Assembly: GCA_944548615.1 (NCBI GenBank)
Contig: OX155964.1
Span: forward strand, 18,208,653 to 18,272,652
Direction: 5' to 3'
DNA: 64,000 nucleotides
Source of the DNA: Micropterix aruncella
Lineage: Eukaryota > Arthropoda > Insecta > Lepidoptera > Micropterigidae
Shown: one piece after another, positions 41,901 to 44,900 of the stretch
Numbering within the stretch: position 1 is the first letter of the stretch
Layout: the number at the start of each line of letters is the position of its first letter
Made by a program: the position numbers and the translations under genes
The notes under the pieces: model-generated
Seen by the model: only the letters and a program-made list of their open reading frames with translations
What the model was told of the DNA's origin: nothing
Databases searched by the model: none

Positions 41901-44900
41901 CGTGGTGTGTCCTAAGATATTGTAGCAATAATACAAGGAATACGTCGAAGTGCAAAGGAATAACTTTCCATCGGTGAGTAACCGATATAATCATTTAGAA
42001 AATTACTATCGTAATAGAAGCGCGCTGTTCAAACAATATGTCGTCGCCGCGCGGGATGCGGGCGGGGTTGTGACGTATCCATAGATTAAAATTGATTAAA
42101 TAACTAAGAAACAGATGCGTCATTTCACTACACTATACCTAGGACTTTTTTGTGAGCGAAATTTGTCGTGTTTTAATTTTATGAGATATTCTATTAACGT
42201 ATTTTTTTATTTTTTATTTTATGTACAAGAAAAAGATTTTATTACAAGAAAAGTATATAAAACCAGACATACCAAAACATGTTACTATTTTTTTCTGCGG
42301 AACACATACAAAGTCCTTCCTCTTTTAAAAAAAATAAAAGTAAAAGCTGAATATTTTCGTAATATATTTATTTAAATAATATAAGTTTAGTTAATTTTTG
42401 CCGTTTTGATAAATAATTAATAGTATGATCAGTTTTAGCATCATGCTTTATGGCCATACATATTTTATGTACCTACGTCTTTTGTGGAGTACCACAAGCC
42501 ACCCATATCTTTGATAGTTATTAGTTTATGATGTGGCAGCCTTTCTGCCTTGATTAAGCCATCCATAATTTTATTGCGTACCAGATTGACCTTCATTATT
42601 TGATTACAAAAGTGGAGAGGACATGTTGTTAGTTTGTTACCGAATCTGAGACCCTCTTTCGTTTGAAGCTTATTAAGAGGTTGACTTAACTGACGTTCCT
42701 TTTTATAGCGAAAAAAAACAATCTAATGAAAGAACTGACTGTGGTTACTCAAGGTTGACCATAAGATGAAAAATAATTATTGCATTTTGTTTGACATAAT
42801 TTGTTACATTTTATCTATTTAAGGTTTCCACGCCCGGGCCATGAATATAGGGAAAAGTGGATAAAATTTATCCAAAACAACCGCAGTGAAGGGACCTGGT
42901 TACCATCCAATCATACGTATATATGTTCGTTGCATTTTCGCGAAGAGGATAAATATACCACAAAAGCGGGAAGGCATTTTCTTAAGAAGTCTGCTGTACC
43001 TTGTGAGAGTGTAAGTACCTAGCACTTGTGAAAATGCTGTACCGTTTTGGAAATTTTAAAATCAGTAACAAAATATTATTTTAGCCATCACTAACATATT
43101 GTTATGTTTGTTTTAGCCACGGATGTCTCCCAGTCCTAGAACAATGGAACCGATTTCTGAGTCTGTAAGCGAGTCGGAATCAATTTTTGATACACCAAGA
43201 AAAATAGTTTTCAAGCGAAAAATCCATGACTTAACATCAGTTAAAAAAAAGTTAACTAATAAAATTAAAAAGGTCCAGCGCCAAAACAGTAATCTAAAAA
43301 AGAAATGTGAATCTCTGACACTTCTTGTAAAATCACTTAAACCTAAATTTTCGCTCGATGGAATGGCCCAAAATAATTTGCTAGCTAAAGCAGAATTGGT
43401 CGAAATACACAAAAGAATAATGGGTAAAAATAAACACAGTAGATATTCTCCAAAATATACACCAGCATTACGCAAGTTCGCATTGACTCTACATTATTAC
43501 TCACCAGCGGCTTACAAATATGTAAGAAATATTTACAATAACATCCTTCCACATACAAGAACTCTTTGCCGATGGTATGGGTCGATTAATGCTGAGCCAG
43601 GATTCACTAATGAAGCGTTTGAAGCTCTGAGAAATAAAAGTAAATCGAGTAAAAAATCTCTTGTGTGCAATTTAGTTTTCGACGAGATGGCTATTCGTAA
43701 GCATAGGTTATTTCACAACCAACAGAAGCTTGGTGCCGTTAATTTTGGAGCAGATCCCCAAGAAGGTGATGTTGACGATCATGTGGCATCACAGGCGTTA
43801 GTATTTATGTTGGTATCGCTGACTGAAAATTGGAAACTGCCTGTGGGTTACTTTTTAATAGCAGGTATAACTGCTGAAACAAAGGCCAATTTAATTACAA
43901 CCTGCTTACAAAAATGTCATGACGCTGGAGTTTCAGTAGTAGGTGTTACATTTGATGGATGCTCCGCAAATCTGTCGGCTGCGGAAATTCTAGGCTGTAA
44001 ATTAACTGACCCGAATAATTTTGTGACCCATTTTCCGCACCCACGCACTCAAGAGAAAGTATGTATATTTCTTGATCCATGCCACGTTATTAAATTAATA
44101 AGAAATTCATTTGAAAAGAAGAGACTGTTTTTTGATGAAGATGGCAAGAAAATTAGATGGCAGCTATTGATTAATCTGAATAAACTTCAAATGAAAGAGG
44201 GCCTCAGATTCGGTAACAAACTAACACCACGTCACCTTGAATTTCGTAATCAAATAATGAAGGTCAATCTGGCTACGCAATTATTAAGTATGAGTGTAGC
44301 AAAAGCATTGCTTCTATGTGACCAAGTTTTGAAGTCGTCGCAGTTCCTAGACTCATCAGCAACTGTTAAATTCTTGACAATTATGAATAACTTTTTTGAC
44401 ACAATGAATTCGAGAAAGTGTCACTTTCATGGATTCAAGCGACCAATTGATGCAAAAAACAAATCTGAAATTTTTGACTTTCTTGATAAAGTAAAGAAGT
44501 ACATATTAAATTTGGAATTCCATGTAAAATGTAAAAGAGTGATTAAAAGAAAAAACTTAGCGCCTCGTATTACATTATTTATTTCAAAACAGAAAGTCGT
44601 CGAATCAGCAAACAAAACTGGATTTATTGGCGCCATCATTTGCATAGAATCTCTGAAAACATTGTATCAGCACGCAGTCGAAGAAAAAAAAGTCATGAGT
44701 TATATTTCAACGTATCGACTCAGCCAAGATCATTTAGAGCTTTTTTTTGGGATTATTAGAAAACATGGTGGATACAACAACAACCCCAATGTTTTGCAAT
44801 TTCGAGCTGCGTATAAAAAAAAATTAAACCACTTGGAACTTCGCTCATCTTTTACAGGCAATTGTATTCCACTAGACAATTTCAATATTCTACACAATTC

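Follow-up and report, generated by a model that had tools for sequence, protein, structure and literature searches.

Drosophila P and zebrafish Pdre2 share four features, as given in parts of two published accounts: terminal repeats, 8-bp target duplications, 11-12 bp subterminal repeats and a THAP transposase (PMC7776569, PMC10983969). In Galileo, a P-superfamily element of Drosophila, the ends have been lengthened by recruiting internal sequence. According to sections of the papers concerned, a 69-bp end of the open reading frame (ORF) belongs to both inverted ends in D. willistoni, reaching more than 500 bp of the ORF in copy 147 (PMC4168063), with similar internal recruitment into the ends in D. 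mojavensis (PMC3573991); the same sections report that no putatively functional copies of Galileo turned up in D. willistoni (PMC4168063). In maize, Mu killer carries a partial inverted duplication of a transposon's own transposase gene, for which a hairpin RNA is proposed; a deleted derivative at a distinct locus, it silences MuDR in trans (PMC3440606, in part).

Here we describe an element from Micropterix aruncella that touches on all of these systems, located in a 64,000-nucleotide stretch of contig OX155964.1 (positions 18,208,653 to 18,272,652, forward strand; hereafter the window). It has all four features noted for P and Pdre2, the subterminal repeats by analogy, but while the repeats described there are 11-12 bp long, the inverted similarity here covers about 665 bp and includes pieces of transposase coding sequence. 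It resembles what is described of Galileo in that internal sequence appears to have been recruited to lengthen an end. In contrast to Galileo, however, the element keeps a short terminal repeat, its reverse copy is intronic and not contiguous with the terminus (it begins 276 bp inside the left end, with exon 1 in between), and three copies of its subfamily have an uninterrupted transposase. Like Mu killer as partly described, it is a transposon with an inverted duplication of transposase sequence, but the tract lies within an apparently autonomous, multiplied element with an uninterrupted transposase rather than at a distinct locus. What is new relative to Galileo is a probable enlargement that is subterminal, intronic and in copies with an uninterrupted transposase. 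Among the matches listed in a literature search, which falls short of showing absence from print, there was no title on an autonomous transposon with an intronic inverted transposase copy and double-stranded RNA (dsRNA).

The element and its transposase gene

The features of the element are as follows.

41730..41737, forward strand: left copy of the 8-bp target site duplication GTTATACA
41738..45927, forward strand: complete P-superfamily transposon, 4190 bp, ends CATTGAGATATA...TATATCTCAATG, common to five copies at five sites
41897..41973, forward strand: exon 1, start of the THAP domain (from reading frame and splice sites)
41974..42823, forward strand: intron 1, 850 bp, GTGAGT...TTTAAG
42824..43010, forward strand: exon 2, remainder of the THAP domain (Pfam PF05485)
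43117..45552, forward strand: exon 3, P-type HTH, RNase H-like and GTP-binding insertion domains (Pfam PF12017, PF21787, PF21788, PF21789; PDB P transposase 6p5a)
45928..45935, forward strand: right copy of the 8-bp target site duplication GTTATACA

The initial annotation had called the transposase intact, and we agree: the three exons join through canonical splice sites into a predicted THAP transposase of 899 aa, in which PF05485, PF12017, PF21787, PF21788 and PF21789 all score above the cut-off, giving a THAP domain together with the P catalytic and GTP-binding domains. Matching 8-bp duplications flank 5/5 two-ended copies, and the inverted terminal repeats (CATTGAGATATA ends) are accompanied by an 11-bp subterminal inverted pair with one mismatch. 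The closest named relatives of the transposase are lepidopteran (a Chilo suppressalis protein is 84% identical), and a search of viral contigs found no relative of the element. Elsewhere in the window, eight open frames of 177-869 aa are clustered at 22295-33402.

The inverted tract and its copies in the genome

Intron 1 contains an inverted partial copy of the element itself, at nearly the same places as had been annotated initially.

42014..42448, reverse strand: reverse copy of 45466-45911 (exon 3 tail, 3'UTR, right end)
42451..42565, reverse strand: reverse copy of exon 3 block 45137-45247, with a 4-bp insertion in the copy
42573..42678, reverse strand: reverse copy of exon 3 block 44175-44281, with a 1-bp deletion in the copy

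The exon 3 blocks had been placed at 45125-45262 and 44180-44290 and are present with the revised bounds above; the 3'UTR and right-end block (given as 45555-45890) is also present, although the final 87 bp of exon 3 (45466-45552) had been overlooked. In total the tract covers 665 bp and reproduces the right end patchily and in reverse; its outer limit matches 45911, 16 bp short of the element's right end. Counting ungapped positions, it is 90.1% identical to exon 3 (265/294) and 86.5% identical to the 3'UTR and right end (283/327). Its coding parts show 29 nucleotide differences over 95 codons, 10 of them synonymous and 19 not, as well as 1- and 4-bp indels relative to exon 3. When the 16 changed residues were read by eye against the two closest proteins, 13 fell on the tract branch and one on the host exon, with two unclear, and with sister DNA (see below) as the outgroup there were 14-16 changed sites in the tract and 5-6 in the host. 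As changes concentrate on the tract in both comparisons, it evolves like unconstrained DNA. An extra 10 bp in the tract (42084-42093) is found in the window's copy alone among nine.

Copy counts are lower bounds from a genome search (1.08 Gb) in which the best candidates were scored. The tract query returned at least 44 matches, assigned to at least 13 loci, and the exon 3 query returned the identical 13 loci at 99-100%, with the next, diverged loci at 67-73%. Five copies (L009-L013) are complete at both ends and occupy five sites, each with an 8-bp duplication of its own; the flanks give these as GTTATACA, GTTTCTAC, TTAACATA, GTTCCTTT and AGTAGAAG. The tract is present in 5/5 of these, and the 899 aa frame is uninterrupted in L009, L011 and L013 and frameshifted in L010 and L012. 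Since five separately inserted copies have the tract, three with an uninterrupted transposase, the tract is compatible with transposition. Where aligned, the 13 copies diverge by 0.04-1.04%, as against 10-14% between the tract and its arms, which makes the tract, or the divergence of its donor, far older than the most recent spread.

Besides these, four truncated copies with the tract (L014-L017) start at 42036, within the tract, and four (L018-L021) have only 42998-45410, in the same surroundings and without intron 1. The 5'-end query recovered all five complete copies, plus a left-end fragment of 112 bp ending before intron 1 (L057 1501-1612, G000:C34:17921452; no right end was noticed in the part read). 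The tract is therefore found in 9/9 copies keeping any intron 1 sequence, and the tract, exon 3 and 5'-end searches of the genome found no copy of the same subfamily with intron 1 but without the tract. We rejected the tract as a common MITE, as the 44 matches are nine tract copies with their arms and four core-only copies. An inverted right end acting as a new left end was also rejected: L014-L017 have their flanks in common and the right-hand ATGGCGTC is absent on the left (checked in L014), so these appear to come from a single truncated locus that was multiplied along with the DNA around it. The eight truncated copies L014-L021 lie within a larger repeated stretch having its own inverted repeats, and four of them lack both P ends and intron 1. 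In L018, a 705-aa open frame (1453-3570, reverse strand) lies in a stretch absent from L014 and L019-L021 in the stretches compared; the 820-aa open frame in L018 is the P transposase itself.

The sister subfamily and the origin of the tract

The same genome holds a sister subfamily at ~68% DNA identity, represented by L035, L036, L037 and L038/L039 (one copy, two overlapping loci). L037 has the whole of intron 1, at 284 bp, as does L039, where TA repeats have expanded it to about 650 bp; L036, a locus without exon 1, and L035, in which neither exon 1 nor exon 2 was recognised, each have part of it. The simple TA-rich repeats lie at 4516-4995 in L036, judged from self-matches, and at 460-834 in L039, by direct reading. 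The long tract was not found in the sister intron 1 of any of the four copies, counting the partial intron of L035 and L036. P copies without the insert, which the initial annotation had regarded, if small RNAs were also missing, as a pointer to an inert nested insertion, are thus represented by diverged sister copies and by none recovered with intron 1 in the window's own subfamily. Both subfamilies nevertheless share a short repeat, which in the window element is paired as follows.

42112..42122, forward strand: left 11-bp subterminal inverted repeat CAGATGCGTCA, named by analogy
45797..45807, reverse strand: right 11-bp subterminal inverted repeat TGTCGCATCTG, 120 bp from the right end

The label is applied by analogy with what parts of the literature describe for P and Pdre2 (PMC7776569, PMC10983969). 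These are the sole matches to the 11-bp repeat in the element with ≤2 mismatches, leaving a single repeat in intron 1, inside the tract. Sister copies have CAGATGTGACA in intron 1 and TGTCGCATCTG, or a form with one mismatch, near the right end. The distances are similar: between the right repeat and the right end there are 130-132 bp in L035, L036 and L037 (120 bp in the window element), and the left repeat is 333 bp from the left end in L039 (374 bp in the window element). In addition, sister intron 1 is similar to its own reversed right end over about 50-70 bp (50-72 alignment columns), with a score that 0/500 shuffles reach in each of L035, L036 and L037. The host intron and the L037 intron could not be aligned at either end (95/500 and 372/500 shuffles reach the score), so their equivalence in position is judged from the 11-bp repeat and these distances.

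We also compared the two ends of each element with their counterparts across subfamilies. In a 31-base window on the repeat, the match within an element is 28/31 for the window element and 22-24/31 for the four sister copies, while like ends of different subfamilies match at 12-13/31. Gapped scores over 91 bases are 81 within the window element and 42-49 within the sisters, against 18-28 between like ends. A point against an enlarged repeat is that the contrast shrinks in wider ungapped windows (51 bases: 32 within the window element, 29-31 within the sisters, 18-24 between like ends).

On balance, we think it probable, with appreciable room for doubt, that the tract is the left subterminal inverted repeat, enlarged by inward copying of the right end. 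This reading is favored because an inverted copy of the right end, shorter but almost equally far from the ends, also occurs in the sister, because near the repeat an element's own two ends match better than counterparts across subfamilies, and because intron 1 has one repeat only, every copy recovered with intron 1 has the tract and no donor was found. In an ancestor of the window's subfamily, the left subterminal repeat would have been rewritten, in reverse, from the right end, probably in the course of post-excision gap repair, or else by conversion of one end by the other. On reaching the subterminal repeat, synthesis would have moved over to the opposite end, copied inward with skips through the 3'UTR and parts of exon 3, and then rejoined intron 1. 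Template switching in post-excision repair is among the causes listed for defective P-superfamily copies in one section of the Galileo literature (PMC4168063). Transposition probably uses the short repeat as a cis-acting site, with putative transposase binding at the 11-bp repeats. The rest of the tract is best read as antisense passenger DNA, spliced out, tolerated and spread with the element. The left/right match could instead reflect selection for one shared transposase, mimicking concerted evolution.

Ordinary nesting is less likely than an enlarged subterminal repeat, and we consider it unlikely overall that an internally deleted (KP-like) P copy inserted by chance in reverse, decayed and was carried along. 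The tract does resemble deleted P elements in being patchy with two internal gaps, and its frameshifting indels, together with the 13/16 changed residues on its branch, suit a decayed copy. Its limit 16 bp from the right end also fits nesting, and the left end of such a copy could have decayed. However, there is no recognisable left end of a second element, the target duplication is unconvincing, the single subterminal repeat sits at about its ancestral place with a short version in the sister, and no other deleted copy retaining the 3' region was found in the genome: the 3'UTR/right-end search gave 18 matches, nine ends and nine tracts, and no separate deleted donor. The initial annotation's alternative of a chance nested insertion is disfavored on these grounds. 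Two candidates for traces of a nested copy were rejected, namely a second end in 42679-42823 (best match to 41738-43200, 18/22 low-complexity bases) and a target duplication formed by GATATAAT at 41984 and GACATAAT at 42793 (7/8 paired, equalled by 129/1000 shuffles).

Predicted RNA pairing and antisense readings

Four blocks have predicted RNA duplex energies of -137 to -223 kcal/mol, far below the means of -32 to -60 from 50 single-base shuffles of each block, so the inverted match is not due to chance. The pre-mRNA (41801-45720) has a predicted MFE of -1134 kcal/mol with 440 tract nt paired with exon 3 or the 3'UTR, as compared to -830 to -871 kcal/mol and 29-96 nt so paired in 9/9 dinucleotide-shuffled controls, and -834 kcal/mol and 77 tract nt paired when the tract is flipped. 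Perfect pairing runs extend up to 27 nt. Folding thus predicts a capacity, and capacity only, for a very strong long hairpin.

The initial annotation had proposed such hairpins, and the folding bears this out, but it had also suggested silencing like that by Mu killer, which fits poorly with five insertions, unconstrained drift and a lack of compensation. Under that proposal, the unspliced transcript, or the excised intron with mRNA, would form dsRNA and yield small RNAs against the transposase, as for Mu killer but inside an autonomous element. The very strong predicted pairing, with its perfect runs, speaks for this. Set against it, tract-bearing copies moved to at least five sites, three with an uninterrupted transposase. 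Of the 12 variable tract sites in nine copies, 11 have a pair-breaking allele relative to the arm and one (42615) a pair-gaining allele, and no compensatory substitution was seen at the 12 variable tract and 12 variable arm sites, a comparison of low power. Across five copies, the tract varies at 12/727 sites, between exon 3 (26/2430) and the 3'UTR (9/374), while the remaining small intron pieces vary less (0/99 and 1/106). Furthermore, splicing would normally take out intron 1 before exon 3 transcription completes. Considering these points, silencing by the tract is unproven and not favored, and we regard it as improbable.

A related reading is that of an autonomous animal DNA transposon with its own antisense brake, in which every primary transcript would carry intronic antisense of exon 3 and the 3'UTR, and dsRNA would grow with copy number, limiting but not stopping transposition; we give this slightly less credence still. 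Least probable of all is that the long inverted repeat is ancient, common to both subfamilies and shrunk to 50-70 bp in the sister, whose intron likewise has an inverted right-end copy, as the exon-3 tract parts have 57-68 sites common to host and tract and differing in the sister (against 20-22 host- or tract-alone changes) and were therefore acquired or re-copied after the subfamily split.

The proposed enlargement of the subterminal repeat suggests that copying of one end into the other can extend the end repeats of P-type elements besides Galileo, and that both ends of a single element may evolve in concert. With several near-identical copies, and the tract-less sister as a control, this subfamily offers a natural test for small RNAs from an intronic antisense self-copy.
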